DNA of 64,000 nt. Origin: Candidatus Nitrosotalea okcheonensis (GTDB taxonomy: Archaea; Thermoproteota; Nitrososphaeria; Nitrososphaerales; Nitrosopumilaceae). The position numbers and the translations under genes were made by a program. Shown piece by piece: positions 49,589 to 62,361 of this stretch. Where the stretch lies: contig NZ_LT841358.1 of the NCBI RefSeq assembly GCF_900177045.1, positions 1,797,559 to 1,861,558 on the forward strand, read 5' to 3'. Under the pieces are notes generated by a model. That model was not told the origin of the DNA. It saw nothing but the letters and a program-made list of their open reading frames with translations, and did no database searches. Every line of letters starts with the position of its first letter. The first letter of the stretch is position 1.

Positions 49589-50491
49589 TTATTTTTGTAA
49601 GATTATCTGCCTTGAGGAATCAGTGATCGAATGTATGACATCCTTGATGTCATCTATTGAATCTGATAGCATTTTTACAATTAATCCTGCTTGGTTGGGA
49701 AGGGTAGACCAACTTACATATAGTTTACCCTTTCTCACTATTCTATCAAATTCTAATTCTATCTTTCTTGATCTCTCTGGCGAGGTAATCAAATAGACTA
49801 TGGAATAGATTGTTTTATTTCCAAAGATGAATTCTGTGCCGCTAAAATTAGCAGTAGGTTCTAGATTCATAAAATCCGAAAAAAGAATTCTATCATTATT
49901 ATCATAAACATTTATTCGTAACCCACATACTTGAAACTGAAATTTTTCATCTGAAGCTATTCTCCCAGCTGAAATTATTTCACTGTAGATCAGAGTTGAA
50001 CCTTCTTCAACTTTTAATCTAGTCTCCTGATAGAATCTTGATGATCTAAAAGGTATTATTTGATTTGGTATAAACTCCAAGTAAGAATTATTTTCAATGT
50101 GGATATCTACAAGTTGTTTAGAAAGTTTTCCTGTGCATTTGTATATTTTAGTCGCAGCTTGATTTGTTATATGGGATACAGTATTTTTTCCTGCTATAAT
50201 TCTAGTCTCTAAAGTATCTCCTTCCAAAATCCCTCCGGATGATGACATCAAGTATATGTATGCCATTTGTGGAAATTGTGTGTCAGGATAAATGGCTCGT
50301 TGAACTAACATTGGTGCCTTTGTTCTAAGATCTCGTATTATGGTCCTTGAATGCTCATTTGTATCAAGGAAGATTCCTATAAATCCATATGTGCTAGGTG
50401 TAGGATATTTTTTGTGAACAGGAAAGAGTCTTGAGACCGAATATTTTATTTCAGTCACTCTTTTTTTTCTTTTTCTCAAATAATAAATCAT
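49589..50491 (-). CDS. ureD: Urease accessory protein UreD (UreH)
   Basis: 300 residues of the UreD family, the scaffold on urease that channels nickel from UreG. Family features include YLMSSSGGILEGDTL, NQAATKIYKCTGK, LEFIPNQIIPFRSSRFYQET and SEIISAGRIASDE. It is last in the ureE-F-G-D unit and overlaps ureG by 41 bases. The annotated start is the longest frame; a shorter start inside is possible. Confidence 0.92.
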   Translation of the reverse strand: MIYYLRKRKKRVTEIKYSVSRLFPVHKKYPTPSTYGFIGIFLDTNEHSRTIIRDLRTKAPMLVQRAIYPDTQFPQMAYIYLMSSSGGILEGDTLETRIIAGKNTVSHITNQAATKIYKCTGKLSKQLVDIHIENNSYLEFIPNQIIPFRSSRFYQETRLKVEEGSTLIYSEIISAGRIASDEKFQFQVCGLRINVYDNNDRILFSDFMNLEPTANFSGTEFIFGNKTIYSIVYLITSPERSRKIELEFDRIVRKGKLYVSWSTLPNQAGLIVKMLSDSIDDIKDVIHSITDSSRQIILQK

Positions 50492-51101
50492 TGATTATGC
50501 GGTCTGCTATAAGGTCTACTCCTTGACCCGTGCTGCAATTTACAAATTGATATGGTTTATTGGGTCTTATTCGCTCTGCGTCAGATTGCATGACAGCAAG
50601 GTTTGCTCCTACATATGGTGCCAAGTCTATCTTGTTTATTACTAGAAGATCACAACTTTCTATTCCTAATCCTCCCTTCCTTGGATACTTGTCTCCACCT
50701 GAGACATCTATGATATAAATAAAATAATCTGCTAAAGCTGGACTGAAAGTAGTCATGATATTATCCCCGCCACTTTCTATTATTATCAAGTCAAGAGACG
50801 AATCTTTCTCTTGGATTTCATTGACAACTGCTAAATTCATTGATGGATCCTCTCGGATTGCAGTATGAGGACAACCTCCTGTTGCTAATCCTATTATGAG
50901 TTCCTCAGGCATCAGATTGGTTTCAGTTGAAAGTGTTCTTCTCATCCTTTCTGCATCTTCCTTTGAAATAACATCATTGGAAATTATGCAACAACGATAA
51001 CCTCTACCATATAAAATTGGGACTAGCTTTTCTATGAGGCGAGTCTTTCCAGAACCTACTGGACCTCCTATGCCAAGCTTAGGAATTGATTTTGTCTTCA
51101 T
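50451..51101 (-). CDS. ureG: Urease accessory GTPase UreG
   Basis: 216 residues. The P-loop GIGGPVGSGKTRLIEKL and the nickel site motif CPH (GGCPHTAIREDPS) are visible, as are ESGGDN and VINKIDLAPYVGA (guanine base recognition NKID). It delivers nickel in a GTP-dependent way. Confidence 0.96.
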   Translation of the reverse strand: MKTKSIPKLGIGGPVGSGKTRLIEKLVPILYGRGYRCCIISNDVISKEDAERMRRTLSTETNLMPEELIIGLATGGCPHTAIREDPSMNLAVVNEIQEKDSSLDLIIIESGGDNIMTTFSPALADYFIYIIDVSGGDKYPRKGGLGIESCDLLVINKIDLAPYVGANLAVMQSDAERIRPNKPYQFVNCSTGQGVDLIADRIINDLLFEKKKKKSD

Positions 51102-51118
51102 ATCAAATTAGCCAAAAA

Positions 51119-51814
51119 TCAAGTAATAAACATTCTATTATCGCTATGTTCATGCATCATCTGAAAAATATCTGTCATTGGAGTCAACTGCCAAATATTC
51201 TCTATGGACTTCTTCTTAATGGATTTGATGATGTGATTTGCATACTCTGACACACGCATCAAAATTCTCTGGCCAGCAAAATGTTCAATTATTCCAAGTC
51301 TTACTGCTGCTGCTACAACGCTGGTACTGTATGAATAGATCATCATCCTGACTGAACTTGTACCGGATATTCCTAAAGATGCTGTCACTATTCCAAAACA
51401 TACTGGATACGTCCCATGAGATTTCTTGGCTTGAATCTTTTTTAGGAATTTACGCATTAACAAATTTTTGTTACCAACCATATCTGATCCACAATAAAGA
51501 ATTTGATGACCAGATCTAGTTGATGCTATACTTACTTCTTTTATCAATTTAAGGGAATAATATTTATCATCCAATTCTATTATTTTCTGAAGATCGTTTT
51601 GTTTTACAGCCTTTATGACATGCAATAAAAATGGACAATCACAGGGAGCAAGCTGAAAATAAATCTGATTTTCAATGAATTTCAAAACATTTTCTTCTTT
51701 TTTTATATGGCCCGATCTGACAAGAGATTCTAAACCCCATGACATACCAAACATTCCAGATGGAAAAAAAGAGTCAGATAACTGCATTATATGAAATTCT
51801 GAATTAATGTTCAT
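51119..51814 (-). CDS. ureF: Urease accessory protein UreF
   Basis: About 231 residues, mostly helical. MQLSDSFFPSGMFGMSWGLES is the standard UreF start, and ASLGISGTSSVRMMIYSY and VRLGIIEHFAGQRIL follow. It acts with UreD as a checkpoint for UreG. The start at 51814 is chosen since it gives the family N-terminus and overlaps the ureE stop by 11 bases; a longer frame adds 25 residues with no homology. Confidence 0.9.
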   Translation of the reverse strand: MNINSEFHIMQLSDSFFPSGMFGMSWGLESLVRSGHIKKEENVLKFIENQIYFQLAPCDCPFLLHVIKAVKQNDLQKIIELDDKYYSLKLIKEVSIASTRSGHQILYCGSDMVGNKNLLMRKFLKKIQAKKSHGTYPVCFGIVTASLGISGTSSVRMMIYSYSTSVVAAAVRLGIIEHFAGQRILMRVSEYANHIIKSIKKKSIENIWQLTPMTDIFQMMHEHSDNRMFIT

Positions 51815-52313
51815 GGACGTTAAGACTATCTTCTGGTTCAAAAATTCTTTCCTGTATGTTGATATCCATATGATTAACAAGGTTTCCAAAAAGGTGACTA
51901 AAGGTCTCTATTTCAGACTCTGCCATAACTGGAAAGTAAATAACTCCCTCATCATCAATCTGGATTGGTCTATGTCTATTTCCAATTATATGGCCAACTA
52001 CTGGCATAATTTTTTTTACCATGTTTAAATCTCCTCTAATATTAATCGAAATTACTTTCTCAGGCATTTGTTCCACTATGATAAATTTGTCTATTTCATC
52101 TAACAACACATCACCATTATGTAATTTTTTATCTGACTCGAGAGCAATTCCAACATCAGTTCCTTTATCGGTATTTCTACGAAATCTATTTTTTTCAAGT
52201 TCGATTCTCGAAATTTTTATTCTTTCACATTTTTCTGTAGATAACTTTTTGAATTTATCTCTCAAAAAAGGATCTTGGAAAATATTTCCAACAATGGAAT
52301 TTATCAAAAGCAT
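51804..52313 (-). CDS. ureE: Urease accessory protein UreE (nickel chaperone)
   Basis: 169 residues. The N-terminal peptide-binding domain has RRNTDKGTDVGIALESDKKLHNGDVLL, and the metal-binding domain includes VVGHIIGNRHRPIQIDDEGVIYFPV. It ends in HVEH-like NVHEH, a short His-containing tail instead of a long His-rich one. First gene of the minus-strand accessory unit, sharing a divergent promoter region with ureA. Confidence 0.92.
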   Translation of the reverse strand: MLLINSIVGNIFQDPFLRDKFKKLSTEKCERIKISRIELEKNRFRRNTDKGTDVGIALESDKKLHNGDVLLDEIDKFIIVEQMPEKVISINIRGDLNMVKKIMPVVGHIIGNRHRPIQIDDEGVIYFPVMAESEIETFSHLFGNLVNHMDINIQERIFEPEDSLNVHEH

Positions 52314-52414: not shown

Positions 52415-52717
52415 ATGATGCTTACTCCTAAAGATTTTGATAAATTGTATATTTTTATGATTGCAGAGCTTGCAAGAAAAAGAATGGCAAAGGGATTGAA
52501 ACTGAATTATCCGGAAGCAATTGCTATAATATCTGATCACATTGTTGAAGGAGCAAGAGAAGGAAAATCTGTTTCTCAACTTATGCAGTCTGGCAGAAAG
52601 GTCTTGTCAAATATGGATGTTCTACCAGGAGTAAGTGATATGATAAAATCAGTTCAAGTAGAGGCAACGTTTGAAGATGGAACAAAACTTGTGACGGTAC
52701 ATGATCCTATAGTGTGA
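52415..52717 (+). CDS. ureA: Urease subunit gamma
   Basis: 100 residues of Ure[52 protein letters not shown] is the family core, and the end [18 protein letters not shown] is normal. It forms the structural urease with UreB and UreC. A second ATG directly follows the first. The stop overlaps the ureB GTG (GTGA). Confidence 0.96.
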
Positions 52718-53085
52718 TTGTAATGAAACCCGGAGAATATCTCATTTCTAAAGAACCAATAATTGCTAATGTGGGAAGGAAAATTGTTAATCTTAAGGTA
52801 AGCAATACTGGAGACCGTCCAATTCAGGTAGGATCACATACTCACTTTTTTGAAGTAAACAAATTTCTTTTATTTCAAAGAGAAAAAGCCTATGGTTTTC
52901 ATCTTAACGTCCCATCTGGATTGTCTGTTAGATTCGAACCAGGTGAGACAAAGGTGGTAGAACTGGTCGAGTATGGGGGCAAGAAGATTGTTTACGGTTT
53001 TAATGGTCTTGTCAACGGAGAGTTGCAGAAAAATAAAACAATGTCTTTAGAAAAAGCAAAATTAAAAGGATTCAAAGGAGCCTAG
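52714..53085 (+). CDS. ureB: Urease subunit beta
   Basis: 123 residues. [50 protein letters not shown] is diagnostic of UreB, as is [17 protein letters not shown]. Separate UreA and UreB genes show the bacterial-like three-subunit urease. GTG start overlapping ureA; ureC begins at the next base after the stop. Confidence 0.96.
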
Positions 53086-54798
53086 ATGCCTCTTACAATT
53101 CCAAGAAAACAATATGTTGATTTGTATGGTCCTACAGTTGGCGACAAAGTAAGACTTGGGGACACTGATCTGATTGTTGAGATTGAAAAAGATCTGATAA
53201 TCTATGGGGATGAAATAGTCTTTGGTGGAGGAAAAAGTGTACGTGATGGAATGGGACAAGCAAGTGGAGTAACTAGAAAAGATTCAGTTGATCTTGTAAT
53301 TACAAACGCGATAATAATGGATCCAATTTTAGGCATAATCAAAGCTGACATTGGGATTAAGGACGGACGTATTGCTGCAATAGGAAAAGCCGGAAACCCA
53401 AACATAATGGACGGGATAAATATGATAATTTCCTCGGGTACCGAAATTATTGCAGGAGAACATACAATTTGTACTCCCGGTGCTATAGATACACACATTC
53501 ATTTTATTTCCCCACAACAGGCGATCGAAGCAATTTGTAGTGGCACAACTACAATGATAGGGGGAGGAACAGGACCTGCAGATGGTACAAATGCTACTAC
53601 TTGTACCCCTGGGCCTTGGAATCTGGGAATGATGTTGCAGGCTATAGAAGATCTTCCATTAAACTTTGGCTTTCTTGGAAAAGGAAATGATGCTCTGGAG
53701 CCTGCATTAATGGAACAAATCGAATCTGGAGCATGTGGGTTAAAGTTACATGAAGACTGGGGGTCTACTCCAGCTACTATAGATTCGGCATTAAAGGTGG
53801 CGGATAAGACTGATACCCAAGTTGCAATACATTCGGATACGCTAAACGAATGTGGCTTTGTTGATGATACCATTGAAGCAATTTCTGGGAGAACGATTCA
53901 TACATATCATACAGAGGGTGCAGGAGGAGGTCATGCCCCAGACATAATGAAAATTGCCTCAGAGAAAAATATACTTCCATCATCAACTAATCCGACCAGA
54001 CCATTTACTGTAAATACAATTGAAGAGCATCTAGATATGATGATGGTATGTCATCATCTAAACCCATCAATTCCGGAAGATGTTGCATTTGCTGAATCAA
54101 GGATAAGAAGTGAAACGATTGCAGCAGAAGATGTACTTCACGATATTGGAGCATTGAGTATGTTTTCCTCAGACTCACAAGCAATGGGTAGGGTAGGAGA
54201 AGTTACAACAAGATTGTGGCAAACTGCAGATAAAATGAAAAAAATGGTAGGCAGACTGAAAGAAGAAAGTGGAGACAATGATAATTTTAGAGTAAAGCGA
54301 TATCTCTCAAAACTCACAATAAATCCCGCAATAACACACGGAATTTCTGATCATGTGGGTTCATTACAAAATGGCAAAATTGCCGATATTGTAATATGGA
54401 CACCAGCCTTTTTTGGAATAAAACCAAAAATGATCATCAAAGGTGGGTTTATAGCATATTCCTTAATGGGCGATCCAAACGCATCAATTCCAACACCAGA
54501 GCCAGTTTACTATCGTCCTATGTTTGGTGCACTTGGAAGAGCCAAGTACGCAACTTCATTTACTTTTACATCGCAATTAGCTATGCAAAATAAAATATCT
54601 GAAAAGTTGAATTTGCAAAAAAAATTATTGCCAGTTGGGAGATGCCGAAAAATAAGTAAAAAAGACATGCTGTATAATGATCTCACTCCCAAAATTGAGA
54701 TAGATCCAGAGACGTATGTAGTTAAAGTAAACGGAAAATTGGCAACAACACAAGCCTCTGAAAAGGTCCCACTTGCAAGGCTGTACAACCTATTTTAG
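53086..54798 (+). CDS. ureC: Urease subunit alpha (catalytic)
   Basis: 570 residues with an intact nickel site: His137 and His139 (DTHIHF), the carbamylated Lys220 (GLKLHEDWG), His249, His275 ([16 protein letters not shown]) and Asp363 ([10 protein letters not shown]). The mobile flap holds Cys322 and His323 (MVCHHLNPS). It hydrolyses urea to ammonia and carbamate. Every catalytic residue is present, so the enzyme should be active once matured by UreDEFG. Confidence 0.98.
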
Positions 54799-54934: not shown

Positions 54935-55822
54935 GTGGAATTTTTAGACACAAGCGTTGTCGAGAAAATAGACCTTAAAATGATTCGACCTTCAAAATTT
55001 TTAGTTCGTGGTGAATTTGACCAAAAAAGACCAGAAATAGAGTCTTTGGCAAGGAGCATAAGAGAGCATGGCCTATTGCAACCTATACTGATACGGCCGC
55101 TAGATCATGGATTTGAGGTTGTAGCAGGTCACAGAAGATTGCAAGCTTGCAGACATCTTAGAAGTAGGTTTATCTCCTGTACGATACGTGAAATTTCCGA
55201 TAAACAAGCATACGAAATCCAACTCATAGAAAATCTGCAGAGACAATCTATGTCTCCGTTAGAAGAAGCAGAGGCTTTTAGAAAATATGTAGATGAATTT
55301 GGATGGGGTGGTGTAACAGAACTCTCAAAGAAAATTGGAAAAAGTATTGAATATGTATCACATAGGATGCAATTACTAAAACTACCGGAAAATGTAAAAA
55401 TAGAACTTGTTCAAAACAAAATAAGCACAAGTCATGCAATAGAACTCTCTACGCTTGATTTTGATGATCAAGTAGGAGTCATAAAAGAAGTAATACGAGA
55501 TAATCTCACAATCAAAGAAATCCGTCAACTAAAATCAAACATTCGTTCACACCCAAAAGAGAATGATTCATCATATCTCAACTCTGTAAATAAACGAGAT
55601 ATGCCTCCTCCTTCAATAAAGTTGGCACAAAAAATATCTATTACATTTAAAATAACTCTTGCTAGGGTTGATCAAATAATATCTGAGGTCGATAAGATAC
55701 AAGATATTGAAAACAAGGAAAGAACAAAAGAACTTTTGATGGATATGCGATTGCGTATACACTCCATGATTGATGAAATCATTCATTTTAAAAAATCCGA
55801 ATTAAATTATAAAATTAAATAA
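54935..55822 (+). CDS. ParB/Spo0J-like DNA-binding protein
   Basis: 295 residues. The ParB N-terminal CTPase-type domain is recognisable: SIREHGLLQPILIRPL, VVAGHRRLQACRHL (GERR-type box with His for Glu) and LIENLQRQSMSPLEEAEAF. A KorB-like HTH follows (GVTELSKKIGKSIEYVSHRMQLLKLPENV). The C-terminal 90 residues are helical and lineage-specific. No parA is nearby, so chromosome partition, nucleoid organisation or gene regulation are all possible. GTG start. Confidence 0.85.
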   Translation: MEFLDTSVVEKIDLKMIRPSKFLVRGEFDQKRPEIESLARSIREHGLLQPILIRPLDHGFEVVAGHRRLQACRHLRSRFISCTIREISDKQAYEIQLIENLQRQSMSPLEEAEAFRKYVDEFGWGGVTELSKKIGKSIEYVSHRMQLLKLPENVKIELVQNKISTSHAIELSTLDFDDQVGVIKEVIRDNLTIKEIRQLKSNIRSHPKENDSSYLNSVNKRDMPPPSIKLAQKISITFKITLARVDQIISEVDKIQDIENKERTKELLMDMRLRIHSMIDEIIHFKKSELNYKIK

Positions 55823-55823
55823 A

Positions 55824-56417
55824 TTATTTTCCAAGAAAAGGTGGAATCCATTCATCAAGAAATTTCTTATATTCTCTTTTTGTATGTGTTAGGGCTTGGT
55901 GGGAAGGCTCCTTCATTGGAACGAAATCGTATATTTCATATGATTGGATTATGTCTCCAAACAAATTACGATATATGTCGCTTTCATCATCTGCCATCTC
56001 TTCATTGAAAAAGCTCTGTATGGTAATCCAATCATATCCTCCTCTTGTTTTTCCAGAAAAAATCACAAATGGTGCATCTGCCAAATATTTTCTCAAACCT
56101 TCTAGTCTCTTTGGTAGATGTTGTGAGGTTCTAAAAGTAACAAGTGATACTCGTATAGTACGTCGAGGTATTTTTTTAAGATCCACTGATATTGTATACC
56201 CTGTAATTACACCTGAATCTTCAAGATTGGTAATTCTTGATTCTATCTCTGACTCGGTTAAATTATAACCACTATCCATCAAATTTTCCAATATTTCTCT
56301 AGTGTCATTTTTGGCGTTTTTACTCAGAGAAGAAAGTATCACTTCATCTATGGTGTCAATCAACAGGTGGATTATCACTAATCTATCAGTTATAGGTTTT
56401 GCAAAGATATTGTCCAT
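55824..56417 (-). CDS. Lrp/AsnC-like transcriptional regulator beside urea transporter
   Basis: 197 residues. A winged-helix region (about 20-75: ILSSLSKNAKNDTREILENLMDSGYNLTESEIESRITNLEDSGVITGYTISVD) is followed by a RAM-like domain (RTIRVSLVTFRTSQHL... FVIFSGKTRGGYDWITIQSFF) and a helical tail. It is longer than standard Lrp. It is divergent from the SSS-USP transporter with only 86 bases between, and a perfect palindrome sits right before its start, so control of itself and the transporter is likely. Confidence 0.75.
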   Translation of the reverse strand: MDNIFAKPITDRLVIIHLLIDTIDEVILSSLSKNAKNDTREILENLMDSGYNLTESEIESRITNLEDSGVITGYTISVDLKKIPRRTIRVSLVTFRTSQHLPKRLEGLRKYLADAPFVIFSGKTRGGYDWITIQSFFNEEMADDESDIYRNLFGDIIQSYEIYDFVPMKEPSHQALTHTKREYKKFLDEWIPPFLGK

Positions 56418-56419
56418 TT

Positions 56420-56438
56420 AATATTTTTCAAAAATATT
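56420..56438. promoter_or_regulatory. Perfect 19-bp palindrome, candidate Lrp operator
   Basis: AATATTTTT-C-AAAAATATT starts three bases upstream of the regulator's ATG. The left arm plus CA (AATATTTTTCA) recurs at 56461-56471, touching the transporter's TATA box. The position suits autoregulation and control of the transporter. Confidence 0.55.
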
Positions 56439-56470
56439 CAACAAGCAGACTAATTTTTACAATATTTTTC

Positions 56471-56482
56471 ATAGATAAATAC
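56471..56482 (+). promoter_or_regulatory. TATA box of the SSS-USP transporter
   Basis: ATAGATAAATAC about 22-33 nt before the ATG at 56504. It directly adjoins a repeat of the candidate operator half-site. Confidence 0.5.
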
Positions 56483-56503
56483 TTGGACAAACCTAACTAT
56501 CCA

Positions 56504-58840
56504 ATGAATTCCATTCTTTCTGAGAATGTAGGGTATGTAATTCTTCTTGGATTTGGTTCGATGATGGCTATTCTAGTCACTCTGATAGTCAAGATTGAAA
56601 CAAGATGGAATAAGATAAGAAAAACATTCGAATGGTTCAACACTGCGGGTAGAAGTGTAAAGACTGGAATTTTGGCATCATCCGTAGTGTCTGCATGGAC
56701 CTGGGCTGCTACTTTTCTTCAATCATCTAGTGTAACATATCAATATGGCCTAGGTGGTTCCTATTGGTATGCAGCAGGTGCAAGCATACAGATTGTTCTT
56801 TTTGCCATTCTTGCAATCGAATTAAAAAGAAAATCTGCTACAGCGCATACGTTTACAGAAATTATAAACGCCAGATTTGGCTCAACTGCTCACAAGATAT
56901 TTCTCTTTTTTGGATTTTTGACAAATAGCATAATTACTGCAATGCTTGTAATTGGAGGTGCGGCGGTTTTAAATTCATTAACAGGTATCAACATATACGC
57001 TGCAGCTTTTCTGATACCTGTAGGGGTTGTCATCTATACATTTTTTGGAGGTCTTAGGGCAACTTTTATTGCAGAATATTTTAACTCAACCCTAATTTTC
57101 ATTGTTATCTTGATTTTTGTTACAACTGTATATTTCGTCAATGGCAATATAGGGGGTATTTCTGGAATGTATGAAAAGATAGTCCATTCAGCAGTAATCA
57201 AACCTGTTGCTGAAAATAGTGGAGGTTCCTACCTCACACTTGCCTCATCAGGAGCACTACTCTTTGGAATAATAAACATTGTAGGAAACTTTGGAACAGT
57301 ATTTGTGAACCAATCCTACTATCAACGAGCTATTGCTGCTAGACCAAAGTCTGCTGTGAAGGGCTTTCTTATTGGTGGTTTAGCGTGGTTTTCTATTCCG
57401 TTTACTCTTGCAACAACACTCGGTCTTGCAGCAATAGCTATGGGAATGACGTTTTCTGCAGATCAGATAAGCATGGGTTTGATAGCCCCATCTGTAGCAT
57501 CGAGTCTGCTTGGTAATATTGGCGCAATTTTACTTTTGACAATAATATTTACTGCGGTAACATCTGCAGGCTCTGCCGAATTGACTGCAGTCTCCTCGCT
57601 TTTTACCTATGATGTATATCGGACTTATCTAAATCCGTCTGCAAGCGGCAGACAACTTGTAAAAATTTCTAGAATGGTGATTCTATTTTTTGGTTGTGGA
57701 ATGGGATTGTTGGGAATATCGATCATACAATTTGGGGTTAGCCTACAATTTGTCTATCTTACAATGGGAATAATCATAGGTTCAGCAGTCATACCTATCG
57801 CCTTAACTCTAACTTGGAAAAAGACTAACAAAATTGCTGCATCGTCAGGTGCAATAATTGGATTGTTTCTAGGAGTCAGTATGTGGTTATATTCAGCATA
57901 TGTCTTATTTGGACAAGTATCTCTATCTTCAACTTCCCAAAACATACCACTGCTTTTAGGAAATGTTATTTCAATATCCTCTGGAGGGCTGATTGTTTTT
58001 CTTGGGAGTCTAATTAACCCATCTAATTTCAATTTCAAGATTATGAAACAAAAAATTATAGTAGTCGATGAGCGAATACGGGCTATAATTGAACGTGACA
58101 ATGATGAGAATTTTCTAAAAAATGCTGCCAAATTTACCTATAGGTACAGTATTGTTCTTTCAATCGTATTGATTGTAGTTATTCCGATCCCACTTTATGT
58201 TTCAGGATATGTCTTTTCTGAAATGTCATATAGAATATGGATAATAGCTGGTATAGTCTGGGTTTCTGTTTCTACAGTAGTTATAATAGGTATGCCTATT
58301 TTTGAGGCAAAAAGTTTTGTAAAAAGAATCATTCTTTCTATTTCAAATAGATTTCTTTATGAAACCAGGTATTTTGATGAACAAAATAATAAAAAATCAG
58401 ACAACAAACATTCTGGTGATTTAACAAATCTGGATGAATATAAAAAAATTCTTGTGGCAGTTGATGGATCAAGCATGTCAATTAGAGCCCTGCGTTATGT
58501 AGAAAATTATTTTGGGAATCTCAACTCGAAAATTTTCATTGTGTATGTAATCGAGTGGGAAGAAACTGACGAGATTTTGGATTCTGTCATCATGAATAAA
58601 ATGGAGATAGAGGGAAAGCAGATGTTGCGTGGTATACTTTTGGCCAAACATGAAGACAAGTATCAAAGATTTGTCAAAGTTGGAGATCCTGCATCTAAAA
58701 TACATGAAATTGCCGAAAAAACAGAAACCGACATAATAGTAATGGGTCTCAAAGGACTTGGAAATACATACCATGAGATGGGACATGTGGGTCAAAAGGT
58801 CTTAAATCTGACGTCAAAACCTGTGCTCTTTCTAAAATAA
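56504..58840 (+). CDS. Sodium:solute symporter (DUR3-like urea transporter) fused to a USP domain
   Basis: About 778 residues. The first ~560 form an SSS transporter with 13-15 helices: FNTAGRSVKTGILASSVVSAWTWAATFLQSSS is the substrate-path region, close to DUR3 proteins. After two extra helices and a charged linker, residues about 646-778 are a universal-stress (UspA) domain (KKILVAVDGSSMSIRALRYV... DIIVMGLKGLGNTYHEMGHVGQKVL). Its nucleotide motif G-x2-G-x8-G-H deviates from the usual G-x2-G-x9-G-S/T. Proximity to urease supports urea as substrate. ATG 56504 was chosen; the longer frame is unsupported. Confidence 0.88.
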   Translation: MNSILSENVGYVILLGFGSMMAILVTLIVKIETRWNKIRKTFEWFNTAGRSVKTGILASSVVSAWTWAATFLQSSSVTYQYGLGGSYWYAAGASIQIVLFAILAIELKRKSATAHTFTEIINARFGSTAHKIFLFFGFLTNSIITAMLVIGGAAVLNSLTGINIYAAAFLIPVGVVIYTFFGGLRATFIAEYFNSTLIFIVILIFVTTVYFVNGNIGGISGMYEKIVHSAVIKPVAENSGGSYLTLASSGALLFGIINIVGNFGTVFVNQSYYQRAIAARPKSAVKGFLIGGLAWFSIPFTLATTLGLAAIAMGMTFSADQISMGLIAPSVASSLLGNIGAILLLTIIFTAVTSAGSAELTAVSSLFTYDVYRTYLNPSASGRQLVKISRMVILFFGCGMGLLGISIIQFGVSLQFVYLTMGIIIGSAVIPIALTLTWKKTNKIAASSGAIIGLFLGVSMWLYSAYVLFGQVSLSSTSQNIPLLLGNVISISSGGLIVFLGSLINPSNFNFKIMKQKIIVVDERIRAIIERDNDENFLKNAAKFTYRYSIVLSIVLIVVIPIPLYVSGYVFSEMSYRIWIIAGIVWVSVSTVVIIGMPIFEAKSFVKRIILSISNRFLYETRYFDEQNNKKSDNKHSGDLTNLDEYKKILVAVDGSSMSIRALRYVENYFGNLNSKIFIVYVIEWEETDEILDSVIMNKMEIEGKQMLRGILLAKHEDKYQRFVKVGDPASKIHEIAEKTETDIIVMGLKGLGNTYHEMGHVGQKVLNLTSKPVLFLK

Positions 58841-58866
58841 TTCTGCCGATGTCGACAAAAAACTTG
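58653..58866 (+). repeat. Direct repeat, left copy (USP tail and 3' flank)
   Basis: The last ~62 codons of the SSS-USP gene and about 26 bases beyond recur at 59670-59879 with only a handful of substitutions and one 4-base deletion. The two copies bracket the PII gene. Confidence 0.93.
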
Positions 58867-59042
58867 ACGAGATGCAAAAATACAATGATATGTAATACCA
58901 TGAGATAAAACTTGAATTAGAAGTTCCTATGGAATTAGATTTCATAATTCCAACACTTTCAATTCTAGTAAAATAAACATCTCTGAATATCTTCTAGCAG
59001 ATCATAACATATGGAAATATCCTAGACAATAATCTAATAACT

Positions 59043-59051
59043 ACTTAAATA
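59043..59051 (+). promoter_or_regulatory. TATA box of the PII gene
   Basis: ACTTAAATA, about 23-31 nt before the GTG start at 59074; leaderless mRNA likely. The 233 bases between the transporter and this gene hold no other recognised feature except the end of the direct repeat. Confidence 0.55.
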
Positions 59052-59073
59052 GAATTTTACATCTTCTTATGTT

Positions 59074-59403
59074 GTGAAGAGAATTGATGCCATAATTCCC
59101 GAAAAAAATCTGCATGTTGTGAATATCGCATTAAAACACGCTGGCATTACTGGTATGACAATCTTTAACACAAAGGGTCGTGGTGAACTTACACCGGAAC
59201 CAATGCAGTTAGGTGGACCTGCTGGATTCTTTATTCCTACATTCACTGAAACTTTCACCATTATGATTCTAGCAAAAGACAGTGATGTTGAGAGTATAAT
59301 TAAATCTCTAATAGAAAGTGCAAGTGCAGGAAAGATAATTGTTACCAATGTGGAGATTTTAATAGATATTCACAAAAATAAAAAAAATGAGGAAGCGCTT
59401 TAG
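59074..59403 (+). CDS. Non-canonical PII signalling protein (GlnB/GlnK family)
   Basis: 109 residues with PII family framework: MKRIDAIIPEKNLHVVNIALKHAGITGMTIFNTKGRGE, then beta strands and the closing EEAL. The T-loop (ELTPEPMQLGGPAGFFIPTF) lacks the Tyr uridylylated in bacteria and is Pro/Gly-rich. The B-loop is shortened: SAGKIIVTNVE instead of TGxxGDGKIFV. Nucleotide/2-oxoglutarate binding may therefore differ. It lies between two urea-type transporters and not beside an ammonium transporter, the usual PII partner. Confidence 0.85.
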   Translation: MKRIDAIIPEKNLHVVNIALKHAGITGMTIFNTKGRGELTPEPMQLGGPAGFFIPTFTETFTIMILAKDSDVESIIKSLIESASAGKIIVTNVEILIDIHKNKKNEEAL

Positions 59404-59951
59404 CCGACCTCTTTTATATATTAAAGCCTAATTGAAACGTTATTTTCATTATGGTTTCATGATCAAACAATTTTTGATAACTCACATATCGTCAAAGTAA
59501 ATAAAAAATTACTGGCAATCAAATTTCTGAATAATTCTTCTTACAAGATTATACTGCTCATTTTACATTCATCTTTAATCATTATAATTTTAAAATCTAT
59601 TCGAGAATTGAAAAAATAATTTCACAATTGAATTTTCTATGTATTATAAAATTATAAAAATAAAATGATAAGACAAGTATCAAAGATTTGTCAAAGTTGG
59701 AGATCCTGCATCCAAAATACATGAAATTGCCGAAAAAACAGAAGCCGACATAATAGTAATGGGTCTCAAAGGACTTGGAAATACATACCGTGAGATGGGA
59801 CATGTGGGTCAAAAGGTCCTAAATCTGACGTCAAAACCGGTACTCTAAAATAATTCTGCCGATGTCGACAAAAAACTTGGTCACAATGACTGTCTTAATA
59901 AATAAATTAAAATCTTGAAAATCATATGAAATACTTGACTAATACCAATTC
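59404..59951. other. AT-rich intergenic region containing the USP-tail copy
   Basis: The first ~265 bases are strongly AT-rich and hold no recognised gene. 59670-59879 is the right direct-repeat copy, and the remaining ~70 bases lead to the second transporter, with AT-rich stretches (ttaataaataaatt near 59894) but no well-spaced TATA box. Confidence 0.6.
59670..59879 (+). pseudogene. Truncated USP-domain fragment (right copy of direct repeat)
   Basis: In the original frame this reads DKYQRFVKVGDPASKIHEIAEKTEADIIVMGLKGLGNTYREMGHVGQKVLNLTSKPVL and then stops early because of a 4-base deletion. A stop codon lies directly upstream and there is no start, so it is not a gene. It is a recent copy of the SSS-USP 3' end, with the same 3' flank, placed about 70 bases before the second transporter. 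Confidence 0.9.
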
Positions 59952-61874
59952 GTGGCAGGTTTAATCGAATCCACTGTGTTGCCAGAACAAGTTGGATGGA
60001 TTATAGTGCTGGGGTTTGGTCTATTCTTCGCAGTACTTGTTTCTTTTCTGATAAAAGCAGAAAAAAAATATCTGGGAGAGAAAATCACATCTGAATTTTT
60101 TGCCACTGCTGGAAGAACAATAAAGACAGGTCTGACAGCTGCTGCAATTGTATCGGCATGGACTTGGGCTGCTACACTACTCCAGTCATCTTCAGTAGCA
60201 TACAAGTTTGGCATCAGTGGACCTTTTTGGTATGCGTCTGGTGCAACTATTCAAGTATTACTTTTTGCAATGCTTGCAATAGAAACCAAGCGAAAGGCTC
60301 CTCATGCCCATACCTTCTTGGAAATAATTAGAGCGAGATATGGTAATGGTGGTCACAAAGTCTTTCTTACTTTTGCCTTGATGACAAACATGATAGTAAC
60401 TGCAATGTTACTTCTTGGTGGTGCAGCTGTGATTAACGGACTCACTGGTATGGACATTTCACTGGCAGCATTTCTAATTCCTATAGGAGTGATAATATAC
60501 ACTCTGGCAGGTGGTTTACGTGCTACTTTTATTGCAGATTATCTTCATACTACAATTATCTTTATTGTACTTCTGATCTTTGTAACTACTGTATACTTTA
60601 CCAGCGGCATGACCGGAGGAGTTCCCGGAATGTATGACAAACTCACAGCTGCTGCACATTTACATCCGGTTGACGGTAATGCAGCTGGAGCCTATCTAAC
60701 AATGGTTTCACTTGGTGGATTAATCTTTGGAATAATCAACATAGTCGGTAACTTTGGTACTGTCTTTGTGGATCAAGCCTATTGGCAAAGAGCTATTGCA
60801 GCAAAGCCAAGCTCTGCTGTAAAAGGATATTTACTTGGAGGAATGGCCTGGTTTGCAATTCCATTTACCCTTGCAACAACACTTGGGTTGGCTGCTGTTG
60901 CTATGAATGTAGATCTTACACCTCAACAAGTAAATCTTGGTTTGGTTGCTCCCTCTGCAGCAGCTGCCTTGCTTGGGCCAGCAGGTGCTATACTGATCTT
61001 GACTATGTTATTCATGGCAGTAACATCTGCAGGTTCAGGAGAACTTGTAGCTGTCTCATCTTTGATTACATATGATATCTATAGAACTTACAAAAATCCG
61101 GAGGCTACGGGAAAACAATTACTCAGGGTTTCACACTGGACAATCGGAATATTTGGCGTAGGCATGGGTGCATTAGCTATCATATTATTAAAAGCTGGCT
61201 TGAGCTTAGGATATGTCTATTTGGCAATGGGTGTGATAATTGGATCCGCAGTGGTACCTATTGCATTAACAATTTTGTGGAAAAAGACAAACAAGAATGC
61301 TGCTATCGCAGGTGCCATAATAGGTCTATTTGCTGGATTGATTGCGTGGTTTGGAACTGCAATGTTCATGTATGGTAATATTTCGCTTGATAGTACTGGC
61401 AAAGATTTTCCAATGTTATTTGGAAACATCGCTGCAATACTAGTTGGTGGATTTATTGTATGGATTGGAAGTGTAGTAACGCCTGCAAACTTTGACTGGA
61501 AGAGAATGCGGGAAGAAATCACACTTGTAGATGAAAGGGAGGTACAATATACTGATCCAAAGGATACAGATCCAGTAATCCTTGAAAAAGCATCCAAGTT
61601 TAGTGTGAAGTCTGGAATCGCACTCACACTTATTCTAGTTGTTGGTTGGCCTATGCCGATGTATTTTTCTGGTTATGTCTTTGATTTGGGATTCTATGAG
61701 TTTTGGGTGGGAATTGCAGTTGTATGGGCAGCATTTGCTTCAGGATCTATAATCTTACTTCCGATAATAGAAGGAAGAGGAGGTATTACTAGAGTACTTC
61801 TAGGTATGGCAGGAAAAACAAATGTAAAAATTATAGATGAAAGAAAAAGGGGGGAACAATCTGATGATGTGTAA
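59952..61874 (+). CDS. Sodium:solute symporter (DUR3-like urea transporter), no USP domain
   Basis: 640 residues with 13-15 helices. It is strongly similar to the first transporter along its whole membrane part: FFATAGRTIKTGLTAAAIVSAWTWAATLLQSSS and IFGIINIVGNFGTVFVDQAYWQRAIAA. It stops after a short hydrophilic tail (DERKRGEQSDDV) with no USP domain. Probably a Na+- or H+-driven urea importer, by family and context. GTG start. The following zinc-ribbon gene overlaps its end by 11 bases. Confidence 0.9.
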   Translation: MAGLIESTVLPEQVGWIIVLGFGLFFAVLVSFLIKAEKKYLGEKITSEFFATAGRTIKTGLTAAAIVSAWTWAATLLQSSSVAYKFGISGPFWYASGATIQVLLFAMLAIETKRKAPHAHTFLEIIRARYGNGGHKVFLTFALMTNMIVTAMLLLGGAAVINGLTGMDISLAAFLIPIGVIIYTLAGGLRATFIADYLHTTIIFIVLLIFVTTVYFTSGMTGGVPGMYDKLTAAAHLHPVDGNAAGAYLTMVSLGGLIFGIINIVGNFGTVFVDQAYWQRAIAAKPSSAVKGYLLGGMAWFAIPFTLATTLGLAAVAMNVDLTPQQVNLGLVAPSAAAALLGPAGAILILTMLFMAVTSAGSGELVAVSSLITYDIYRTYKNPEATGKQLLRVSHWTIGIFGVGMGALAIILLKAGLSLGYVYLAMGVIIGSAVVPIALTILWKKTNKNAAIAGAIIGLFAGLIAWFGTAMFMYGNISLDSTGKDFPMLFGNIAAILVGGFIVWIGSVVTPANFDWKRMREEITLVDEREVQYTDPKDTDPVILEKASKFSVKSGIALTLILVVGWPMPMYFSGYVFDLGFYEFWVGIAVVWAAFASGSIILLPIIEGRGGITRVLLGMAGKTNVKIIDERKRGEQSDDV

Positions 61875-62361
61875 TGGTTGTGGAATACAACTTGGATTTA
61901 CAAAATACAAGTTTCGAGGAATGTGGAGAATTCAAGGTCTTTTTTGTAAATCTTGTATGAAAAAGATTGGTGAAAATATTGACAAATCACATACTGGAAC
62001 CACTAATTTAGAAAAACAACAATGTACTCTATGCAAAAGTGAATTTTATTTTCTTCAATCCAAGGTACAAGGAGAAAAATTCTGCAAGTTTTGTTATGAC
62101 GTGGTTGCTAATGATAAATCAATTTCTAATTCCAATTCTTCCATGACCCAAAAATTGCCCAAAGTAAACATGATCTGGGGCATTTTTGGATTGGCTTTAA
62201 TGCTAGCAGGCTTGGTATTTACCTTTGTAAACACGTCACAAGCGGGTGGTAATCTACTTAGTATCATTTTTGGTTCAATGACAACTGCTACTGGATTTAT
62301 TGTTTTTAGAAAGACACTGTATTCACGGAGAGTGCTTTATGGAAAAAAAATACATGCATAA
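61864..62361 (+). CDS. Zinc-ribbon membrane protein of unknown function
   Basis: About 165 residues. Two CxxC pairs form one ribbon (CNGCGIQ...CKSC), and a second ribbon follows (CTLCKS...CKFC). Two membrane helices near the C-terminus (IWGIFGLALMLAGLVFTFV; LLSIIFGSMTTATGFIVF) precede a basic end. A purine-rich AAAGGGGGGAA lies upstream of the ATG. Overlap with the transporter suggests coupled expression; an accessory role for it is conceivable. Not a known family to me. Confidence 0.65.
   Translation: MMCNGCGIQLGFTKYKFRGMWRIQGLFCKSCMKKIGENIDKSHTGTTNLEKQQCTLCKSEFYFLQSKVQGEKFCKFCYDVVANDKSISNSNSSMTQKLPKVNMIWGIFGLALMLAGLVFTFVNTSQAGGNLLSIIFGSMTTATGFIVFRKTLYSRRVLYGKKIHA

Follow-up and report, generated by a model that had tools for sequence, protein, structure and literature searches.

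Between two DUR3-type urea symporter genes of an ammonia-oxidizing archaeon lies a gene for a true PII-family protein that has lost its B-loop. It belongs to a monophyletic subfamily that is associated with urease and with urea or biuret-type genes. With moderate confidence, we read its product as a dedicated PII that would dock on urea or ureide symporters and whose read-out would not run via the classical pocket. The window is the whole stretch of 64,000 nucleotides that was analysed; all window coordinates refer to it, and "window PII" denotes the open reading frame at 59074-59403. That the organism is an ammonia oxidizer is indicated by two archaeal AmoA matches.

Table 1. Features of the urea island and of the window PII (window coordinates)
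Feature	Position	Strand	Evidence
Urease accessory genes ureD, ureG, ureF, ureE	49589..52313	-	Pfam UreD, UreF; NCBIfam UreG, UreE
Urease structural genes ureA, ureB, ureC	52415..54798	+	NCBIfam
DUR3-type SSS urea symporter with a Usp domain fused at its C terminus; true start probably later than annotated	56399..58840	+	PF00474, PF00582, PDB DUR3
First copy of a 214-nt segment (3'-terminal part of the first DUR3-Usp gene), with PII between it and the second copy	58653..58866	+	find_repeats 97%, 100%
PII-family protein, B-loop deleted, Pro/Gly-rich T-loop	59074..59403	+	PF00543, residue table, AF2, PDB fold match
T-loop region of the window PII, about residues 37-57, GELTPEPMQLGGPAGFFIPTF	59182..59244	+	alignments
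Position at which five B-loop residues are missing; residues 85-88 are AGKI	59326..59337	+	alignment to 3n5b, residue table
Second copy of the 214-nt segment, shortened remnant of the DUR3-Usp 3' end just before the second DUR3	59670..59879	+	repeat search
Second DUR3-type SSS urea symporter	59952..61874	+	PDB DUR3 4.5e-205 (plant DUR3 chain)
Small CxxC-motif protein downstream of DUR3, no Pfam match	61837..62361	+	similar gene after DUR3 in L062, L109, L112

The frame has a GTG start and encodes 109 amino acids. Residues 1-101 match the whole PF00543 domain (1e-13, 51.9 bits, cut-off 25), and the best solved relative by phmmer is the PII of Anabaena (3n5b; 3.3e-9). An AlphaFold2 model built on a 28-row alignment (mean pLDDT 89.4, pTM 0.77) predicts the double ferredoxin-like fold of the family, with 3n5b as its best fold match (Z 16.2, rmsd 1.3 over 107 residues). 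All matches listed in two fold searches with this model (50 each) are PII or GlnK proteins; neither SbtB nor CutA is among the matches listed, which excludes nothing. The nearest solved structures are classical PII/GlnK, and the identification as PII in the earlier note, which was made from the sequence alone, holds. The model is of a single chain, and the homotrimeric state of the family is presumed for the window PII. With canonical PII/GlnK proteins (3n5b, archaeal GlnK1 and GlnK2) it shares the whole-domain profile, the fold (Z ~16), the length class and the linkage to a nitrogen transporter.

The window PII differs from these proteins in its ligand positions, its T-loop and its genomic neighbours. 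Alignment with the PII of Anabaena shows a gap at residues 84-88 (AGKII in place of TGEIGDGKIF), which takes out the B-loop turn containing G87-D88 and leaves only the G-K behind it. The residues R9, Q39, K58, G87, R101 and R103 take part in binding ATP or 2-oxoglutarate in archaeal GlnKs, according to the accessible text of the source (PMC8395244). At these positions the window PII has P, L, T, a gap, D and H (0/6 kept). T29, G89 and K90 (Anabaena numbering) are retained. The T-loop, GELTPEPMQLGGPAGFFIPTF, is rich in Pro and Gly and has Phe at position 51 in place of Tyr; in the seven subfamily members, window PII included, this column holds Tyr in five and Phe in two, and T-loop indels make the column uncertain. 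The missing modified Tyr, the Pro/Gly-rich T-loop and the absence of the GDG element of the B-loop had all been pointed out in the earlier note and are seen here too. With neither the GDG B-loop nor the ATP/2-oxoglutarate side chains, the protein falls outside the canonical GlnB/GlnK subgroup. Judged by its residues, the classical pocket looks unusable, and binding of ATP and 2-oxoglutarate has probably been lost. With all six canonical positions lost, a different ligand, as proposed earlier, is plausible, but the evidence points to no particular one.

The neighbours are urea-type transporters rather than an ammonium transporter, as had been recognized. The window PII lies 233 bp after the first, Usp-fused DUR3 gene and 548 bp before the second, and the urease cluster upstream of it is complete. 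The first DUR3 (56399-58840, as window 56507-58837) matches the chain of a plant DUR3 structure at 3.7e-181, and the second is 66-68% identical to the SSS proteins of five other urea islands. Instead of the gene next to amt that characterizes the canonical GlnK subgroup, the window PII has DUR3-type SSS genes beside it; the Amt-linked PIIs of this genome are elsewhere on the contig, at ~397 kb compared with 1,857 kb for the window PII. A ParB-like protein (PF02195; window 54935-55822) is also encoded near the urea island, and frames similar to it were seen by eye near urease in two other genomes, G184 and G206 (L112:17985-18842, L110:5228-5974).

Of 250 Nitrosopumilaceae genomes, 7 encode a subfamily member. 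Against the family profile, the six full-length copies reach 165-187 bits, values that are raised by construction since the profile was built from these same copies; a contig-end fragment scores 111 bits and the next PII 95. When the window protein alone serves as query, the other members score 95-112 bits (the fragment 53) compared with 65 for the next PII. The gap to the next PII bounds the subfamily sharply. No orthologues were found outside the Nitrosopumilaceae in the order sample (400 genomes) or the phylum sample (398 genomes), and scanning viral sequences with the profile of the orthologues confirmed no virus-borne copies at that sensitivity. A further contig search for close relatives returned one locus only, apparently from the genome of G184. 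A member is present in only 2 of the 37 genomes of the window's genus. The subfamily is monophyletic, with clade support of 100/99 when the B-loop columns are removed; the first tree was built from 96 of the 103 rows, without fragments and divergent sequences, and for the second 12 of the 103 rows were dropped and the remainder was thinned at 85% identity to 60. Since the six full-length orthologues carry the same deletion and form one clade, the deletion is not a chance event.

Residue losses of this kind lead one to expect that nucleotide binding is lost as well, but they are no proof of it, and SbtB illustrates that proteins of the PII fold have more than one way to hold adenyl nucleotides. 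The PII-like protein SbtB binds AMP between its subunits, in the same cleft, according to the available part of the source (PMC8352866), and this counts against our preferred reading. It is possible, if rather unlikely, that the window PII retains adenyl-nucleotide binding in an altered pocket, after the manner of SbtB, and senses energy on DUR3 or another target. The intact fold and the retention of T29, G89 and K90, the last two in 7/7 orthologues, would be compatible with such binding. However, R101 is replaced by Asp and R103 is lost in all seven, residues 84-88 are deleted, and F92, which flanks adenine in the accessible text of PMC8395244, is Ile or Met in six of the seven.

Orthologues lie within 1 kb of DUR3 in three of the seven members (the window, L062 and L066). 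In G121 (L062) and G175 (L066), the gene is located behind urease, 768 bp and ~533 bp after DUR3. In the genus mate G206, the orthologue is divergent from an NCS1 permease gene (PF02133) 183 bp away, and the permease is followed by a BiuH-like hydrolase; its top NCBIfam hit, the model for biuret amidohydrolase, scores 279 bits and misses the cut-off of 370. The copies of G033 and G173 are at contig edges. In G184, the gene is flanked by a weak GAPDH-type match and a CNNM gene, and DUR3 sits on a separate contig; this counts against the docking on DUR3. The next PII in G173, ~0.4 kb from the orthologue, is of a different type with an intact B-loop, and is related to one in G112 that follows DUR3, a CxxC protein and a Usp gene in a urea island (L109:6226-6558, minus strand). 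We count the presence of these intact-B-loop proteins in favour of our preferred reading. Any PII within 5 kb of DUR3 was seen by eye in 4 of 60 DUR3 genomes (G000, G121, G175 and G112), many of whose contigs are short.

Urease is encoded in all seven subfamily genomes compared with 99 of 250 (hypergeometric 0.0013), and DUR3 in six of the seven compared with 60 of 250 (0.0009), both values ignoring shared ancestry. The subfamily PII is thus associated with urease and urea or biuret-type genes. At the cut-off used, 54 of the 60 DUR3-bearing genomes lack a subfamily PII, so DUR3 can do without it. The higher count for urease than for DUR3, together with G206, which has urease (on another contig than the PII) and no DUR3-type SSS at the cut-off used, would fit a PII that makes no contact with a transporter, regulates urease, ammonium assimilation or transcription, and sits in the island through joint gene use only. 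We consider this doubtful, because the PII gene is within 1 kb of some transporter gene in four of the seven members and the transporter of G206 is an NCS1 permease, of another family than DUR3. The action on urea uptake suggested in the earlier note is supported in part: recurrent neighbourhood and co-occurrence speak for a putative link of the protein to urea or ureide uptake.

The PII gene is flanked by direct repeats (97% identity over 177 nt, 100% over 36 nt), which suggest that two DUR3 genes formerly stood side by side and were recently separated by an insertion or duplication event. DUR3 genes in direct succession, with no intervening PII, occur, e.g., in G096 and G234. The PII and its spacers (58867-59669) have a GC content of 28.5%, compared with 37% for the window. 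A recently acquired or decaying gene of little function would agree with the repeats, the AT-rich cassette and the patchy distribution, but is very unlikely given the intact frame, the 25 columns that are invariant across the six full-length orthologues and a TATA-like stretch ~27 nt upstream of the start (read by eye).

For the preferred reading, a dedicated PII on urea or ureide symporters, T-loop docking on DUR3 would be the most economical version. A trimeric PII with a re-purposed T-loop would dock on the DUR3-type SSS in the window genome and on the NCS1 permease in G206, and once docked would modulate uptake, in the manner of GlnK on Amt and SbtB on SbtA. In view of the missing B-loop and ATP/2-oxoglutarate side chains, the switch would be something other than the classical ATP/ADP/2-oxoglutarate site, either another ligand or simply the amount of PII. 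We infer the docking on the symporter, the direction of regulation and the new signal. SSS and NCS1 permeases have the LeuT-type fold in common, and this would explain how one PII family could serve both DUR3 and NCS1.

Cyanobacterial SbtB, which regulates the bicarbonate transporter SbtA, is likewise a PII-fold protein encoded with a sodium/solute symporter. Its T-loop docks in SbtA, and it senses AMP or cAMP (PMC8352866, in the part available); the T-loop docking is our model, although SbtA is not a DUR3-type SSS. The C-terminal CGPxGC motif that the same text describes for some SbtB members is absent from the window PII. Cyanobacterial PII is also tied to urea uptake, and controls UrtABCDE via UrtE, apparently without the T-loop, as far as the accessible text goes (PMC6603209). 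In that system the PII is canonical and its target is a subunit of an ABC transporter, whereas in the window a dedicated atypical PII is encoded beside a symporter. The apparent disuse of the T-loop on UrtE counts against T-loop docking, and contact with the transporter without the T-loop may be an alternative mode. In the literature on PII with urea or DUR3 in ammonia-oxidizing archaea, for which subscription journals were mostly outside the search and some sources were available in part, neither a B-loop-less PII nor a PII-DUR3 pair is described.

The oddity of the window PII stressed in the earlier note is real, but it does not set this gene apart: among the sampled PIIs of ammonia-oxidizing archaea, a deleted B-loop and missing ligand residues are common. 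We compared 131 distinct Nitrososphaeria PII domain sequences, plus that of Anabaena, in a biased set (gathered by similarity to the window PII and PF00543, with a few fragments among them), and 106 of the 131 keep at most one of the six ligand positions. In most of them, position 9 is Pro and position 101 is Asp. The B-loop is missing in 37 further rows of the 103-row set, which comprise Amt-linked tandem pairs, a cyclase-fused PII and their relatives. With four rows set apart (Anabaena, two canonical and one Nitrososphaeraceae-type), R101 is Asp in 7/7 subfamily members, 37/37 other B-loop-less rows and 54/55 rows of a third group. The 37 rows share the place of the deletion with the window PII, but differ in a T-loop of the type IHASKGTE.FTPEF, in K58 or R58, and in forming a separate clade (100/98). 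A common origin of the two deletions is neither supported nor rejected (p-AU 0.414).

The window genome encodes one such B-loop-less PII as a fusion with a nucleotide cyclase domain (PF00211, 6.4e-11; L005:526-1797, minus strand, contig stretch 512695-515988). PII-matching frames of 426-439 amino acids occur in seven genomes including this one, and the domain architecture given here is that of the frame in the window genome. Two tandem B-loop-less PIIs (L108:3249-3952, plus strand) are divergent from Amt (PF00909; 1888-3294, minus strand), and several genus mates are alike. N. devanaterra has a PII beside Amt and no urease, according to the accessible text of PMC4836417, and a closed 1.8-Mb genus mate also lacks urease; from these two points we tentatively take the genus to be Nitrosotalea. 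Canonical PIIs exist in Nitrososphaeria and in some ammonia oxidizers. We rejected ligand-residue loss as a strict mark of ammonia oxidation: amoA-positive G138 and G135 each encode a PII that keeps 6/6 positions and G148 one that keeps 5/6, and a PII with 6/6 is also encoded in each of the amoA-negative genomes G015, G017, G423 and G446.

A review ascribes classical GlnK/GlnB regulation by uridylylation to ammonia-oxidizing archaea, in the part of its text that is available (PMC10432482). The sequences speak against a classical read-out for most of the sampled PIIs of these archaea, and the 2-oxoglutarate/ATP read-out looks to have been lost well beyond the window PII. Only tentatively do we extend this to the view that ammonia-oxidizing archaea have largely given up that read-out and that the subfamily may be a B-loop-free regulator of DUR3/NCS1 urea or biuret symporters with a signal new for PII, which we think improbable as a whole. 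Ammonia-oxidizing archaea are major nitrifiers, and the finding bears on the choice between ammonium and urea in these organisms. If true, the partnership of a PII with symporters of the DUR3 type would add a class of transporter that is new to PII control.
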